Part shown: in pieces, positions 30,319 through 52,480 of the stretch
Layout: every line of letters starts with the position of its first letter
How positions within the stretch are numbered: position 1 is the stretch's first letter
Assembly (NCBI GenBank): GCA_035710745.1
Contig: DASTCX010000018.1
Location: 72,001 to 136,000 of the forward strand
Source of the DNA: Candidatus Eremiobacteraceae bacterium
GTDB taxonomy: Bacteria > Vulcanimicrobiota > Vulcanimicrobiia > Eremiobacterales > Eremiobacteraceae
DNA length: 64,000 nt
Direction of reading: 5' to 3'
The notes under the pieces: model-generated
The model's database searches: none
What the model was told of the DNA's origin: nothing
What the model saw: the letters and a program-made list of their open reading frames with translations, nothing else
Position numbers and translations under genes: made by a program

Positions 30319-32130
<1,812 letters not shown>

Positions 32131-32228
32131 GGCCTGACCCCTTCGCTGGAACGGCCTCGCGCGACCTGCGCGAGCGCATCGAAGGTCCGCCAAGTTGACG
32201 CCGAACCGCTGCGAGCTATATGCCGGTC

Positions 32229-45883: not shown

Positions 45884-47212
45884 ATGCTCGAAACGCGTTC
45901 GCAGATCCCCGACTACGAGCTTCCCGGTCCGGCCGCAGCCGAAGTCGTCAAGCGCGAAACCGCGCTCATGACGACCGGCACGAAGACCGCACCGGTCGCC
46001 GTGAAGACCGCGAAGGGCCTCTTGCTCGAGGACGTGGACGGCAACGTCTTCCTCGACTTCACGAGCGGTATGGTCGCCGCCGTCGGCCACTCGCACCCGA
46101 AAGTCGCGCAGGCGATCGCGGATCAGGCGCAGCGATGGCTCTTCATCAATAGCCCCGACTTCTATTCGCCGCTCGCGGCGGAAGTGGCGGAGCGTCTAGC
46201 GCGTCTCGTGCCGGGTACGGCCGGAAAAAAAGTCTTCCTGTGCAACAGCGGCGCCGAGGCGAACGAGGCCGCCATCAAGGCGACGCGGTGGAACAACCCG
46301 ACGCGCAAGCGCCTCATCGGTTACATCGGTGCGTTTCATGGGCGGACGATGGGTGCGAACGCGCTCACCGCGAGCAAGATCGCGCAGCGCGCGCGCTTCA
46401 CGCCGAACATGCCGGACGTCCATCACGTGCCTTTTGCGACGTGCTACCGCTGTCCGTACAAGATGACATACCCGAGCTGCGACATATGGTGTGCGCGCAT
46501 CCTCGAAGAGCTCTACTTCAAGCAGCTCATACCGCCGGACGAAGTGTCGGCGATCTTCGTCGAGCCTATCCAAGGCGAAGGCGGCTACATCGTGCCGCCG
46601 CCGGAGTTCGTGCAGATCGTCCGCGACATCGCGAACCGCTACGGCATCCCGTACGTCGACGACGAAGTGCAAGCAGGCATGGGCAAGAGCGGCAAGATGC
46701 TCGCGATCGAGCATCACGGCGTCACGGCGAATTGCACGTCGATCGGCAAGGCCCTCGGGTCCGGCGTCGCGGTTGCGGCGCAAGTGCTCGACGCGAACCT
46801 CGACTTCGGCGTCCAGGGCGCGCATTCGAACACGTTTGGCGGCAACGGCATCGCGCTGGCGGCCGCCAAGGCGACGCTCGACGTCTTCGAGGAGGAGCAC
46901 CTCGTCGACCGCGCGGCCGAGCTCGGCGCATATCTCTTCGATCGCCTGCTCGAACTTCAGAAGAGTTTCCCGGCGATCGGCGACGTTCGGGGCAAAGGCC
47001 TCATGCTCGCGATCGATTTCGTCGTCGATCGAAAGTCTCGGACCCCCGATCCGGCCCATCGAGACCGCGTCCTCGAGGGCTGCTTCAGGCACGGACTCAT
47101 GTTGCTGCCGTGCGGCTTCTCCGCGATCCGCTTCACGCCGGCGCTCGTCGTCGAGCGCGAGCAGATCGATCGTGCTATCGCGGTCCTCGACAAAGCGATC
47201 AGGGAAGCCTGA
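45884..47212 (+). CDS. class III aminotransferase (4-aminobutyrate/acetylornithine type)
   Basis: 442 residues, PLP-dependent. NSGAEANEAAIKATR (about 122), FHGRTMGANALT, VEPIQGEGGYIVPP (about 227), VDDEVQAGMGKSG and CTSIGKALGSGVA (Schiff-base Lys, about 290) are all present. The stretch YRCPYKMTYPSCDIWC with four Cys (about 190) is typical of the gabT/ornithine-type aminotransferases of Deinococcus and archaea. Start ATG at 45884 with GGAAAG 11 nt upstream. The reverse neighbour is the inositol phosphatase. Confidence 0.9.
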   Translation: MLETRSQIPDYELPGPAAAEVVKRETALMTTGTKTAPVAVKTAKGLLLEDVDGNVFLDFTSGMVAAVGHSHPKVAQAIADQAQRWLFINSPDFYSPLAAEVAERLARLVPGTAGKKVFLCNSGAEANEAAIKATRWNNPTRKRLIGYIGAFHGRTMGANALTASKIAQRARFTPNMPDVHHVPFATCYRCPYKMTYPSCDIWCARILEELYFKQLIPPDEVSAIFVEPIQGEGGYIVPPPEFVQIVRDIANRYGIPYVDDEVQAGMGKSGKMLAIEHHGVTANCTSIGKALGSGVAVAAQVLDANLDFGVQGAHSNTFGGNGIALAAAKATLDVFEEEHLVDRAAELGAYLFDRLLELQKSFPAIGDVRGKGLMLAIDFVVDRKSRTPDPAHRDRVLEGCFRHGLMLLPCGFSAIRFTPALVVEREQIDRAIAVLDKAIREA

Positions 47213-47349: not shown

Positions 47350-48663
47350 GTGGAACCCGTCGAAGCGTTCGTCAGCGAGCTATGCGGACGACCGGTCGAG
47401 CTGTCGGCCGGCGGCGCTCGCACGCGCATCGGGCGGGTCGAGGATATCGCGGTCGACGCCGCCGAGGCCTATCCTCCGGTCGTGGGCGTCTACGTGAAAT
47501 CGCGCGGCAAGCTGCGCTACGCGCCGGCCTCGGAGATCGCCTCGATGGACGAACGGGTGACCGTCCTTACGGCGGCGCCGAAGGACCCGGCCGACTCGTC
47601 GATCTCCCCGAACGAACTGCTCCTCAACAAGGAACTGCTCGACAAGCAGATCGTCGACGTCGACGGCCGTAAGGTCGTTCGCGTCAACGACGCGCGCCTT
47701 GCGACGACCGGCGAGACGCTGCGCCTCATCGCGGTCGATATCGGCATCTCGGGACTCTTGCGCCGCCTCGGACTGCGCGGTCTCGGCCAAGCCTGGCTCC
47801 GGCGCGTGACGAAACCAGGTCTGCGGCCGGCGCTGATCTCGTGGGATGCTGTGCAGCCGCTCCATCGCGATGCGGCCGGCGAGGCGATACGCCTGCAAGT
47901 CCCGCGCGAGCTCATCAACCGCATCCACCCGTCCGACCTCGCGTCGATCATCGAGGAGCTCAACGCTTCAGACCAGGCGTCGCTCGTCGGCTCGCTCGAC
48001 GAAGAGACGGCCGCGGACGCGTTCGAGCAGCTCGACTCCGACACGCAGCTTTCGATCCTCGAGGATCTCTCGCCCGATCGCGCCGCCGACATCATCGAGA
48101 ATATGTCGCCGGATGACGCGGCCGACGTCCTCGGCGAGGTCGAGCCCGAGAAGCAAGAACAGATCCTGCGCCTCATGGAGCCCGACGAGGCGAAAGACGT
48201 GCGCGAGCTGCTCACGCACGACGAAGAGACCGCCGGCGGTCTCATGACGACGGAGTACCTCTCGATCCCGCCTGGCCTCACCGTGGCGCAGACCTTCGAT
48301 CACATCCGTCAAGCGGCGGAAGACGCCGAACTCATCTATTATCTATACGTGCTCGAGCCGGATGAGAAGATCGTCGGCGTCGTGGCGCTCAAGGATCTCA
48401 TCACCGCGCGCCTCGACGCGCCCGTCGACGCAATCGCGGTCGACGACGTCGTCCACGTGCCGCTCGAAGCGAGCAAGGAAGAGGTCGCGACGACGATCGC
48501 CCGCTACGACTTCCTCGCGGTTCCGGTCGTCGACGAGCACGGCCGCATGCACGGCATCGTCACGGTAGACGACGTCATCGACGTCCTGCTCCCCGAGAAG
48601 CTCCGGCGCATGCTCAGCCGCGTCGGAAAGTCGCGGTCGAAGTCGCAGAAAGCGCCGCGGTAG
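47350..48663 (+). CDS. stand-alone MgtE-type Mg2+-sensing protein (PRC-PRC-MgtE_N-CBS)
   Basis: 437 residues with no transmembrane segment: two PRC-barrel-like parts (about 5-75 and 90-150), a helical MgtE N-domain with repeated LxxLxPDxAADII units (ILEDLSPDRAADIIENMSPD and DDAADVLGEVEPEKQEQILR, about 235-275), and a CBS pair (MTTEYLSIPPGLTVAQ, about 298; VALKDLITARLDAP; FLAVPVVDEHGRMHGIVTVD). In MgtE this N-CBS unit senses cytosolic Mg2+ and gates the channel; here the channel is missing and the next gene is an NRAMP-like carrier. GTG start has GGAGG 9 nt ahead. Likely the gate or regulator of the carrier. Confidence 0.85.
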   Translation: MEPVEAFVSELCGRPVELSAGGARTRIGRVEDIAVDAAEAYPPVVGVYVKSRGKLRYAPASEIASMDERVTVLTAAPKDPADSSISPNELLLNKELLDKQIVDVDGRKVVRVNDARLATTGETLRLIAVDIGISGLLRRLGLRGLGQAWLRRVTKPGLRPALISWDAVQPLHRDAAGEAIRLQVPRELINRIHPSDLASIIEELNASDQASLVGSLDEETAADAFEQLDSDTQLSILEDLSPDRAADIIENMSPDDAADVLGEVEPEKQEQILRLMEPDEAKDVRELLTHDEETAGGLMTTEYLSIPPGLTVAQTFDHIRQAAEDAELIYYLYVLEPDEKIVGVVALKDLITARLDAPVDAIAVDDVVHVPLEASKEEVATTIARYDFLAVPVVDEHGRMHGIVTVDDVIDVLLPEKLRRMLSRVGKSRSKSQKAPR

Positions 48664-48666
48664 GTC

Positions 48667-49947
48667 TTGGAAGCCGTCGAGACGGTCGACACCGCGCGTC
48701 AGTCCAAGCGTCCGAATCTCCTCCGGACGCTCTTGATGTTCTTGTCCATCGTCGGCCCGGGGATGATCACCGCGAACATCGACAACGATGCCGGCGGCAT
48801 CGCGACGTACTCGCTCGCCGGCGCGAATTTCGGCTACGAGTTCTTGTGGCTCATCGTCGTCATCACCGTCGCGCTCATCGTCATCCAAGAGATGTGCATC
48901 CGACTCGGCGTCGTGACGGGCAAGGGTCTCGCGGATCTCATACGCGAGCGCTTCGGCGTGCGCATCACGCTCGTCGTCATGATCTTGCTCGCGCTGTGCA
49001 ACCAGTTCACGACGGTCGCCGAATTCGCCGGCATCGCTTCGAGCGCGGACGTGCTGCACATCAGCCGCCTCGTAGCGGTCGCCGTCGCCGCGCTCATCGT
49101 CTCGCTGCTCGTCTTGCGCGCCAACTACAAGGTCGTCGAAAAAGTCTTCCTCGCCGCGTGCCTCGTCTATCTGACGTACATCGTATCCGGGATTCTCGCT
49201 AAACCCGATTGGCCCGTCGTGCTGCGCGCGACGATCTCGCCGCATATCTCGTTCGCGCCGGCGTATCTCGCGATGTTCATCGGCGTCATCGGCACGACGA
49301 TCGCGCCATGGATGCAGTTCTACATCCAATCCTCGGTCGTCGAAAAGGGCGTCAAGCCGAAGGAGTTGCGCTACTCGCAGGTCGACGTCGTCCTCGGCTC
49401 GTTCGTCACCGACATCGTCGCGTTCTTCATCATCGTGGCATGCGGCGCGACGCTCTTCGTCCATCACGTCGTCGTGAACGATGCCGGCCAGGCCGCCGCG
49501 GCGCTCGAGCCGCTCGCAGGCCGCTACGCGTCGCTGCTATTCGCGATCGGCTTGCTCAACGCGTCGCTCTTCGCGGCATCGGTGCTGCCGCTGTCGACGG
49601 CCTACACGGTCTGCGAAGCGTTCGGATTCGAGTCCGGCGTCGACAAGCGGTTTGCGGAAGCGCCCATCTTCTTCTCCCTCTATCTCGTCATCATCGTGCT
49701 CGGCGCGCTGCCCGTCCTCTTCCCTCATGCGCCGCTGCTCACGATGATCTTCTGGTCGCAGGTCATCTCGGGCATGCTCTTGCCTGTCGTCGTCATCGCG
49801 ATGCTCATCCTCATCAACGATAAGTCGCTCATGGGCAAGCACGTCAACGGCCGGGTCTTCAACATCATCGCATGGGCTACGGCAACCGGCGTCATCGCCG
49901 CGACGCTGGTGTACCTGTTCTTCCTCGTCACGGGCACCGGATCATGA
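48667..49947 (+). CDS. NRAMP-related divalent metal transporter with non-canonical metal site (possible Mg2+ carrier)
   Basis: 426 residues with about 11 TM segments. In TM1 the DPGN motif reads DAGG (GPGMITANIDNDAGGIAT), keeping Asp but replacing Asn by Gly; in TM6 the metal-contacting Met of classical NRAMP is Ala (GTTIAPWMQFYIQSS). Loss of this Met is known to relax discrimination against Ca2+ and Mg2+, and NRAMP-related Mg2+ transporters lack the standard site. Together with the preceding MgtE-type sensor this suggests Mg2+ uptake, not Mn2+. Start is TTG, 3 bp after the sensor stop, so translation is coupled. Confidence 0.85.
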   Translation: MEAVETVDTARQSKRPNLLRTLLMFLSIVGPGMITANIDNDAGGIATYSLAGANFGYEFLWLIVVITVALIVIQEMCIRLGVVTGKGLADLIRERFGVRITLVVMILLALCNQFTTVAEFAGIASSADVLHISRLVAVAVAALIVSLLVLRANYKVVEKVFLAACLVYLTYIVSGILAKPDWPVVLRATISPHISFAPAYLAMFIGVIGTTIAPWMQFYIQSSVVEKGVKPKELRYSQVDVVLGSFVTDIVAFFIIVACGATLFVHHVVVNDAGQAAAALEPLAGRYASLLFAIGLLNASLFAASVLPLSTAYTVCEAFGFESGVDKRFAEAPIFFSLYLVIIVLGALPVLFPHAPLLTMIFWSQVISGMLLPVVVIAMLILINDKSLMGKHVNGRVFNIIAWATATGVIAATLVYLFFLVTGTGS

Positions 49948-51161
49948 CCGCCGACGAGATCGCGCAGCTCGCCGAGCGCGCCGCCCGTGTCATCACCGGC
50001 GGCGGCGGCATCAAGGCGCTCGCACAATTGCTCGCCGACGCCGTCGACGGATCGGTGCTCATGGAGGACGAGCAGTGGCGTCATCTCGCGCTGGCCGAGG
50101 GTGCCGGCGCGACGGGGGCGCTGCCTGCGTCGTTCGCGCCGTTTCGGAGTGGTGCGCCGATCGCGCAAGGAGCCGACGGCGCCGTCGCTCGAGCGAAGAT
50201 CGACGAACGAATCACCGCGTTCTGCGCGCCGATGCCGGGCGCGCCGGATGCGGACGGCGTCGCCGGATACGTCACCGTGTTCGTCGCCGGCAAGCCCGCG
50301 TCGGCAGTATCGGCGGCGTTGCGCGTCGTCGCGGGCGCTGCGGGCGTCGAGCGAGTACGGCGCGGCGCGGGCAAGTCGCAGGCGAGGCGCGCATTTTGGG
50401 ATCGCGTGCTCGGCGGCGGCTATGCCGATTCGGCGGCGCTGAAGGACGATGCGGCCGCAGCCTCCATAACGCTCGCACCGTCGTACGTCGCCGCCTTATT
50501 CGACGTCGAAGGCGCATCGCCGACCGCCGTCCGCGATACGATCGCGCAGGCGCTCGCCTCGACCGACGTGGTGTGTCCGCCGGTTCCCGCGGGCGGCCAC
50601 GTACTCGTGCTCTTCGGGGTCAGGCACCAAGCCGATGTCGCCCGCGCGCGTCAAGCCGCGGCGAACGCCGTGCGGGATCTGCCGGCGCAAGCCGTCGCTC
50701 GGTCCGTGACGTGCGGGATCGGCGCGCATCACGCCGATCCGCTCGACATCGCCCAATCGTTCAAGGAAGCGCGCCAAGCACTCGTTCTCGGCCGACGGCT
50801 TCGCGGGCGCGGCAGCGTCACGACGTACGCCGAGCTCGGCATCCACGCGCTGCTCCATGCGGGCGCCGATCGGGATTCGTTCGCACGTTTTGCGGACGCG
50901 ACGATCGAACCGCTCGTCGCGTACGATCGTAAACACAAGACGGAGTTGTTGAAGACGTTGCGCCTGTTCTTCGAGGTCGGGGAGAACGTCAAGGAGGCGG
51001 CCGAACGGCTCTCGGTCCATCGCCACACGATCTTCTACCGCCTCAACCAGATCGCGCAGATCTTGAAAGTCGACCTCAATAACCCCGACGACCAACTCGG
51101 CGTCCGCGCCGCGCTCGCCATCAGGCAGATGCACTCGGACGACGACAGAGGCTTGCCATGA
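49944..51161 (+). CDS. PucR/CdaR-type transcriptional regulator
   Basis: 405 residues. N-terminal GAF-like region, central CdaR GGDEF-like part (about 180-310) and a C-terminal helix-turn-helix of the PucR type: LLKTLRLFFEVGENVKEAAE and RLSVHRHTIFYRLNQIAQIL (about 335-380). The start overlaps the carrier stop (ATGA) and its own stop overlaps the glutamine synthetase start (ATGA). PucR proteins control purine or amino-acid nitrogen use; here the natural targets are this operon and nitrogen metabolism. Confidence 0.87.
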   Translation: MTADEIAQLAERAARVITGGGGIKALAQLLADAVDGSVLMEDEQWRHLALAEGAGATGALPASFAPFRSGAPIAQGADGAVARAKIDERITAFCAPMPGAPDADGVAGYVTVFVAGKPASAVSAALRVVAGAAGVERVRRGAGKSQARRAFWDRVLGGGYADSAALKDDAAAASITLAPSYVAALFDVEGASPTAVRDTIAQALASTDVVCPPVPAGGHVLVLFGVRHQADVARARQAAANAVRDLPAQAVARSVTCGIGAHHADPLDIAQSFKEARQALVLGRRLRGRGSVTTYAELGIHALLHAGADRDSFARFADATIEPLVAYDRKHKTELLKTLRLFFEVGENVKEAAERLSVHRHTIFYRLNQIAQILKVDLNNPDDQLGVRAALAIRQMHSDDDRGLP

Positions 51162-52480
51162 CCAAACGCGACATCCCCAAGCGGGCGCGCGAGCTCGGCG
51201 TCCAATTCGTCCGCCTGCAGTTCAACGACATCCACGGCGTCACGAAGAACGTCGCCATCCCGGCGAAAGAACTCGACGCCGCGCTCGACGGAAACGTCGT
51301 CTTCGACGGATCGTGCATCGAAGGATTCGTCCGTTTCGAAGAAGCCGACATGTACCTCATGCCGGATCCGGCGACGTTCGCCGTCCTTCCGACCGCGCCG
51401 GGCGCGCCGGTCGAAGCGCGGCTCATGTGCGACGTCAAGAACCCGGACGGATCGCCGTTTGAGGGCTGCCCGCGCAGCACTCTGCGCCGAGCGCTTGACG
51501 AGGCTGTGGCGCTCGGTTACGGAGTCCGCGCCGCCGCGGAACTCGAGTTTTTCCTCTTCGAAACGCCGGCTGGCGGCGGATCGCCGGTCGCGACGACCGA
51601 CACCGGGTCGTACTTCGATCTGAGCCCGATGGACCGCGGCGACCTCGCGCGCCGAGATGCCGCTTTGGCCCTCGAGGACATGGGGATCCGCGTTTCGGCG
51701 ACGCATCACGAGGTGTCGCCCGGGCAGCACGAGATCGATCTTGCGGTGACCGACCTGCTCGCTCTCGCGGACGGCGTCGCGACGGCTCGCGTCGTCGTCA
51801 AGACGATCGCCGCTCGGCACGGCCTCAACGCGACGTTCATGCCGAAGCCGCTGCTCCATCGCGACGGCAGCGGGCTGCACGTGTCGCAATATTTCACGGC
51901 CGGCGACGGCGCGAACGCGTTTCTCTCGGCAGGGACGTTGGCGAACCTCAGCGAGATCGGCTTGGCATACGTCGGCGGATTGCTCGCGCACGCGCGAGGC
52001 TTCACGGCGATCACGAATCCGACGGTCAATTCCTACAAACGCCTCGTGCCCGGCTACGACGCGCCGTCGTTCGTCACGTGGTCGCAGCGCGCGAAGAGTT
52101 CGCTCGTCCGCGTGCCCGACGAGCGCGGCGGGGTCGTCCGCGTCGAGCTGCGGTCGCCCGATCCGTCGTGCAATCCGTATCTGGCGTTCGCATGCATCCT
52201 CAAGGCCGGGCTCGACGGCATCCGCCGCAAGCTGGTGCCGGGCGACCCCGTCGACCTCAATGTCTCGACGATGCCGGAGGACGAGCGCTCGGATCTCGGG
52301 ATCGATCAATTGCCGGCTTCGCTGCAAGAGGCGATCGTCGCGCTCGACGCCGACGCGGTGACCCGCGCGGCGCTCGGCGACCACAGCTACCACCGGTTCC
52401 GCGAGGCGAAGCTTTCGGAATGGGAGTCCTACCGGACGCAGGTGACCCCGTGGGAACTCGACGCGTACTTGACGCTGTGA
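51158..52480 (+). CDS. glnA: glutamine synthetase, GSI-alpha-like
   Basis: 440 residues, the size of Gram-positive-type GSI-alpha. Catalytic segments: FDGSCIEGFVRFEEADMYLM (about 49-68; Cys in place of the usual Ser), AAELEFFLF (about 128), SATHHEVSPGQHEID (about 184), FMPKPLLHRDGSGLHVSQYF (about 230), NPTVNSYKRLVPGYDAPS (about 287) and VELRSPDPSCNPYLAFA (about 330). The adenylylation tyrosine region of GSI-beta is absent. The start overlaps the PucR stop, so the enzyme is tied to that regulator. A GSI-beta paralogue is 6 kb downstream. Confidence 0.93.
   Translation: MTKRDIPKRARELGVQFVRLQFNDIHGVTKNVAIPAKELDAALDGNVVFDGSCIEGFVRFEEADMYLMPDPATFAVLPTAPGAPVEARLMCDVKNPDGSPFEGCPRSTLRRALDEAVALGYGVRAAAELEFFLFETPAGGGSPVATTDTGSYFDLSPMDRGDLARRDAALALEDMGIRVSATHHEVSPGQHEIDLAVTDLLALADGVATARVVVKTIAARHGLNATFMPKPLLHRDGSGLHVSQYFTAGDGANAFLSAGTLANLSEIGLAYVGGLLAHARGFTAITNPTVNSYKRLVPGYDAPSFVTWSQRAKSSLVRVPDERGGVVRVELRSPDPSCNPYLAFACILKAGLDGIRRKLVPGDPVDLNVSTMPEDERSDLGIDQLPASLQEAIVALDADAVTRAALGDHSYHRFREAKLSEWESYRTQVTPWELDAYLTL

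Follow-up and report, generated by a model that had tools for sequence, protein, structure and literature searches.

A detached MgtE-like sensor encoded beside an NRMT-type carrier in Candidatus Eremiobacteraceae

The gene pair and its sensor protein

Within the window, the 64,000-nucleotide stretch of Candidatus Eremiobacteraceae DNA analyzed here, two genes follow each other closely on the forward strand. The first (47350..48663, +; GTG start) encodes a soluble protein of 437 amino acids with the domain order PRC-PRC-MgtE_N-CBS-CBS, which we call the sensor, and the second (48667..49947, +; TTG start) encodes a LeuT-fold carrier of 426 amino acids. The TAG codon of the sensor gene ends at 48663 and the TTG codon of the carrier gene begins at 48667, leaving a gap of 3 bp. 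An earlier note on this DNA had described a soluble PRC-PRC-MgtE_N-CBS gene 3 bp from a carrier of the NRAMP superfamily; open reading frames, Pfam and hydropathy all agree with it, with the second PRC domain contributed by AlphaFold2. Long open frames in four other genomes (G045, G039, G098 and G042), considered as natural sensor-carrier fusions, proved to be overlapping frames instead.

The pair is framed by genes on the same strand. Upstream of the sensor lies a class-III aminotransferase gene (45917..47212, +) that is syntenic within the family, and downstream follow two syntenic neighbors, a gene for a PucR-type regulator (49944..51161, +) and one for a glutamine synthetase-like enzyme (51158..52480, +). 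ATGA overlaps across 49944-52480 join the carrier stop to the regulator start and the regulator to the glutamine synthetase, so the Mg2+ pair may share a transcript with nitrogen-metabolism genes. Elsewhere in the window, a TPP riboswitch (32025-32138, -) scored above the Rfam threshold, and a twister-sister match (E = 0.37) was treated as noise.

A 19-residue hydropathy scan of the sensor peaked at 1.29, with nothing above 1.6, and identified no membrane segment. Pfam recognizes one PRC domain, MgtE_N and two CBS stretches, and the AlphaFold2 model (pLDDT 88.7, from a 40-sequence alignment) arranges the chain as two small N-terminal beta domains, the helical MgtE_N and the CBS pair. PRC-barrel 1 (residues 5-73; 47362..47568, +) is supported by both Pfam (PF05239, E = 4e-5) and the modeled strands. 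The second, PRC-like domain and the two helices that follow it (residues 89-165; 47614..47844, +; hereafter PRC2) fall below the Pfam threshold in the window sensor, and two relatives give weak PRC hits (E 0.002-0.011). Its assignment rests on the AlphaFold2 model, which folds residues 89-130 into another small beta domain, and the region is marked by conservation over 102 sensors. Next come the MgtE_N superhelical domain (residues 192-293; 47923..48228, +; PF03448, E = 9e-28) and the CBS pair (residues 294-416; 48229..48597, +), assigned by Pfam and by alignment to MgtE. At the C-terminus, a basic helix (416-433 in the AlphaFold2 model) and tail (48598..48660, +) replace the acidic plug helix of MgtE, and no pore domain follows. 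The closest solved structures to the sensor model are all MgtE cytosolic domains, with Mg2+-bound 2yvy superimposing at a TM-score of 0.86 and an rmsd of 1.8; among the solved chains listed, none covers the PRC part.

Closure of Thermus thermophilus MgtE depends on the cytosolic sites Mg4 (D91/D247), Mg5 (D226/D250), Mg6 (D95) and Mg7 (E59), as well as on the plug-helix sites Mg2 and Mg3 and the pore site Mg1 (PMC5882242). On the MgtE_N side, the sensor keeps D223 (E59 in MgtE, Mg7), D255 (D91, Mg4) and D259 (D95, Mg6), and on the CBS side D387/D411 (D226/D250, Mg5) and D408 (D247, Mg4). All residues that were mutated to disable Mg4-Mg7 in MgtE (PMC5882242) therefore have acidic counterparts in the window sensor. 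Judged by these residues, the Mg4-Mg7 sites are retained, and hence the sensing half of MgtE appears to have been kept. The same residue mapping also recovers the ATP site, for which PMC5529423 names six residues: Y331, D349, F388 and a valine are kept, an arginine is replaced by K348, and N203 is replaced by V364. Across the alignment of 102 sensors, the ATP site is poorly conserved.

Upon aligning these 102 sensors, we found invariance to be densest in PRC2 rather than in MgtE_N or CBS. Ten of its 77 residues are conserved at ≥95%, and the most invariant residues of the protein (D98, Q100, D103, R111, N113, D114, G135, R138, R139 and W165) fall within its signature, DKQIVD..G.KVVRVND...RRLG...ISW. 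If the sensor docks on the carrier, this clustering makes PRC2 the best candidate for the contact. Our literature search found no paper linking a PRC-barrel with MgtE.

The carrier and its ion site

The best PDB relative of the carrier (PF01566, E = 6e-96) is EleNRMT (7qia; 364 bits, E = 1e-107), compared with 99 bits for MntH, and EleNRMT is also the top Foldseek match of the predicted structure (TM-score 0.90). The TM1 ion-site motif (48787..48798, +) reads D41-A-G-G44 within NDAGG, where D41 and G44 correspond to EleNRMT D55 and G58. The TM6 motif (49294..49314, +) reads T210-T211-I-A213-P-W215-M within GTTIAPWM, with T211 at the position of EleNRMT T224 and with the same Met-to-Ala and His-to-Trp replacements as in EleNRMT. 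The alignment thus upholds the earlier reading of DAGG in TM1 and of alanine for methionine in TM6. D41, G44, T211 and A213 are the residues that identify an NRMT ion site; MntH, by contrast, is recognized by DPGN in TM1 and by methionine in TM6, where the carrier has DAGG and alanine. The proton-relay histidines are likewise absent, W215 and I220 standing in their places. All 132 NRMT sequences compared have D41, G44, T211, P214 and Q365 in common.

In a maximum-likelihood tree, NRMT-like carriers, the window carrier among them together with EleNRMT and carriers under M-box control, split from MntH at full SH-aLRT support (100); the position of EleNRMT inside the NRMT clade is unreliable due to its long branch. 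Alignment and phylogeny, the check proposed with the earlier note, thus placed the carrier with NRMT and not among true Mn/Fe NRAMPs, and by its sequence we identify it as a member of the NRMT (NrmT) clade.

The earlier note went further and held that the carrier had lost its transition-metal site. This is too strong, because EleNRMT, with the same residues, is reported to bind and transport Mn2+ besides Mg2+, in both cases without proton coupling (PMC8806188). Its supporting argument, that removal of the NRAMP methionine admits alkaline-earth ions, stands for Ca2+, which passed through EcoDMT lacking the methionine, and fails for Mg2+, transport of which was not conferred even by a full NRMT-type site, as reported in the same paper (PMC8806188).

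The window genome also encodes one CorA and two further NRAMP-related carriers. One is an MntH adjoining a DtxR/MntR-like gene; the other (120628-121719 of contig C35) is 38% identical to the window carrier, and its motifs (DDDPSG in TM1, GTTISPYM in TM6) match the site of neither MntH nor NRMT.

Joint inheritance and Mg2+ riboswitches

The tree also puts a carrier from a named Eremiobacterota/Vulcanimicrobiota member among those of the host phylum. Among 148 genomes of this phylum, 112 contain both sensor and carrier, seven the sensor only, two the carrier only and 27 neither (Fisher p=7e-21, a value not independent of phylogeny). The nine one-gene cases are mostly incomplete genomes or contig ends; in G097, the absence of the carrier is only apparent, its gene being cut by a contig end. 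Sensor and carrier adjoin in 67 instances, 63 with both genes on the same strand and the sensor first and four convergent, and about 45% of the sensors do not adjoin a carrier. Beyond the phylum, 81 NRMT loci were compared, which represent a dozen phyla as well as two methanogen MAGs, and 62 of them have a sensor within the flank; an automatic match at one further locus (L089) was an unrelated CBS pair. The pair also occurs on five plasmids, from Alicyclobacillus, Arthrobacter, Citrobacter, Cellulomonas and Leifsonia. The 67 instances in the phylum and the 62 of 81 loci outside it show that the adjacency is not due to chance, and the neighborhood survey that had been proposed as a second check thus revealed conservation across phyla and on plasmids. 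Pairwise distances among sensors track those among carriers (r 0.66, higher than in any of 2000 within-phylum permutations), a weak test in that species history is only partly controlled.

Throughout the class, the genes form a row of sensor, carrier (where present), PucR and glutamine synthetase, to which the family adds the aminotransferase in front. In two loci (L015 and L025), the carrier is inverted in place. In several genomes, it has left the row and is located elsewhere, and the sensor stays between the aminotransferase and PucR-GlnA. That the two genes separate and yet remain in the same genome argues that function, not position, ties them together.

The M-box, a Mg2+ riboswitch, occurs 123 times in 96 genomes of the host phylum, 84 times upstream of an NRMT or sensor gene. 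It precedes 39 of the 63 same-strand pairs and lies within 800 bp upstream of 29 of 56 other carriers and within 3 kb upstream of 10 more. In five genomes (G019, G054, G087, G093 and G136), an unlinked sensor has its own M-box match, three of them clear and two below the Rfam cut-off, and here M-boxes precede sensor and carrier separately. Among other records, an M-box lies upstream of 11 pairs or carriers, including that of the Alicyclobacillus plasmid. A search of the window yielded no M-box even with a cut-off of E≤5, and none was found in the window genome; the same holds for the other members of its branch (G105, G053 and G071). Most of the class has DVGG/ISPW carriers, many with an M-box, and in the tree the carriers of the window's branch are set apart from these. 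Control by the M-box is thus seen in many relatives and is not a defining property of all NRMTs. Of the 112 pair-bearing genomes in the host phylum, 3 also encode the MgtE channel, versus 12 of the 36 others; in the window genome, no PF01769 match was detected, in the sensor or elsewhere.

Several loci show arrangements of their own. Genomes of genus g12, among them G042 (locus L040:2927-5302), have their M-box some 1-3 kb ahead of the NRMT gene, and the gene that intervenes in L040 encodes a protein of secreted or outer-membrane, beta-rich appearance with no Pfam match, possibly a Mg2+-controlled outer-membrane partner. Two further loci (L061 and L105) showed M-boxes, one on the NRMT gene of a MAG resembling Eremiobacterota and the other on a pair from an Acidobacteria MAG, while altered sensor ligands prevail among Acidobacteriaceae pairs. 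On Citrobacter freundii plasmid pPSV (L158) and on a Cellulomonas plasmid (L159), a divergent NRMT-like carrier and a PRC-MgtE_N-CBS sensor adjoin ArsR-type regulators and heavy-metal P-type ATPases, on pPSV also a Tn3 transposase, a context that suggests spread of the pair with metal-resistance elements. On the actinobacterial plasmids (L157, L159 and L160), TM1 reads NDAGA, with alanine at the position of EleNRMT G58, the carriers carry long extensions at both termini, and the sensor is encoded downstream rather than upstream.

A model for gating in trans, its rivals and known systems

The arrangement seen here has a precedent. Shin et al., 2014 (PMC4072509) reported the pairing of an MgtE fragment with NrmT, at Ca_c0685 in C. 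acetobutylicum and Acp2976/Acp2977 in A. capsulatum, and suggested that it serves feedback control; the concept itself thus dates from that study. Of the two-part Mg2+ system put forward earlier, the substance fits an NRMT carrier, a conserved neighborhood and Mg2+ riboswitches in relatives; that the combination was uncharacterized does not hold, as Shin et al. had described it.

Family membership, ion-site residues, Mg2+ ligands, co-occurrence, co-localization and the riboswitches shared in relatives form the computed support for the reading that we consider probable, namely that an NRMT uniporter is gated in trans by a detached MgtE sensor. The carrier would admit Mg2+, and probably some Mn2+, down the electrochemical gradient without proton coupling. 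The sensor would bind cytosolic Mg2+, and perhaps ATP, at the MgtE_N/CBS interface and close like the cytosolic half of MgtE. In its closed form, it may dock on or near the cytoplasmic face of the carrier, probably via PRC2, and slow transport, inhibition being the presumed direction of control. When Mg2+ drops, the sensor would open and release the carrier. Speaking against this reading are the experiments of Shin et al., in which the sensor was dispensable and without effect, the missing M-box in the window lineage, the large share of sensors that lie apart from a carrier, and the altered and poorly conserved ATP site.

According to Shin et al., 2014 (PMC4072509), the A. capsulatum carrier, which lacks a riboswitch, moved mainly Mn2+: it fully rescued a mutant in Mn2+ transport and gave only weak rescue of a Mg2+ mutant. 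The window lineage also has no M-box, and NRMT-type sites are reported to carry Mn2+ too, which together would fit a carrier that mainly moves Mn2+ and an MgtE-like sensor re-tuned to this ion, as suggested for A. capsulatum. We regard this as unlikely for the window pair. In Acidobacteriaceae, the carrier motif is usually DSGG or DTGG and the sensor has in most cases lost ligands of Mg4 or Mg5, whereas the window carrier shares DAGG with EleNRMT and 10 of 11 M-box carriers and its sensor retains all four ligand sets. Moreover, the window genome has its own MntH beside the DtxR/MntR-like gene, and no MgtE. Because of the missing M-box and the A. capsulatum precedent, we call Mg2+ only the likely substrate here.

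The sensor might also not act on the carrier at all, serving another Mg2+-dependent task, for example with PucR or glutamine synthetase, or as a buffer or chaperone, with adjacency reflecting only a shared Mg2+ regulon. That it keeps its place between the aminotransferase and PucR-GlnA even where the carrier lies outside the row would be in line with this, as would the reports that the sensor is unnecessary for NrmT function and that co-expression of the A. capsulatum pair changed nothing, and the chaperone role raised by the same authors (Shin et al., 2014; PMC4072509). Sensors outside the class, however, adjoin NRMT without PucR or GlnA, the plasmid pairs travel without both, and at least four genomes that are >90% complete (G072, G040, G064 and G086) lack sensor and carrier together, which leaves this explanation rather improbable. 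A third possibility, that the sensor activates the carrier or is a subunit required for its assembly instead of inhibiting it, would account for the near-strict co-occurrence and the invariant PRC2 surface. It strikes us as very improbable, since C. acetobutylicum NrmT and EleNRMT are reported to function without a sensor and three genomes (G090, G106 and G115) hold an extra carrier without a second sensor.

We return to gating in trans by the detached sensor. In its most specific form, to which we give somewhat less than even credence, the MgtE-derived sensor would be a gating subunit of an NRAMP/LeuT carrier, with PRC2 (DKQIVD..RVND..RRLG..ISW) as its dock, and would provide the main Mg2+ feedback in the M-box-free window lineage. 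Beyond the 2014 report, the present data provide strong evidence that sensor and carrier share their evolution, their spread and their induction. That an MgtE-like gene accompanies NrmT is no accident of gene order: the two are kept or lost together across the host phylum, stand under the same Mg2+ riboswitch even when apart, and largely replace the MgtE channel. The comparison singles out the Mg4-Mg7 ligands and the PRC2 signature, and it offers a sequence marker that might distinguish pairs for Mg2+ from the Mn2+-type pair of the first study.

Compared to the pairs of Shin et al., 2014, the window has the same two gene types side by side with the sensor gene upstream, in a different phylum (Eremiobacterota/Vulcanimicrobiota) and with no M-box at the pair; its sensor differs from most Acidobacteriaceae sensors in its intact Mg4-Mg7 ligands, and PRC domains are not mentioned in the available portion of that description (PMC4072509). 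With T. thermophilus MgtE, the sensor shares the MgtE_N-CBS fold (TM-score 0.86) and the Mg4-Mg7 ligand positions; it lacks the pore and the acidic plug helix, and with them the Mg1-Mg3 sites, and has two extra PRC-like domains at its N-terminus. The carrier is 46% identical over the aligned length to EleNRMT of Eggerthella lenta (7qia; Ramanadane et al., 2022), the available text of which discusses no partner protein (PMC8806188). The two carriers share the D-A-G-G and T-I-A-P-W site, a conserved glutamate on helix 3, a glutamine on helix 10 and the tryptophan that replaces the first proton-relay histidine, and they differ at the second relay position, which is isoleucine in the window carrier and asparagine in EleNRMT. 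With MntH and canonical NRAMPs, the carrier has the LeuT-fold superfamily in common and only about 25% identity, and it has replaced both their DPGN/MPH metal site and their proton-relay histidines.
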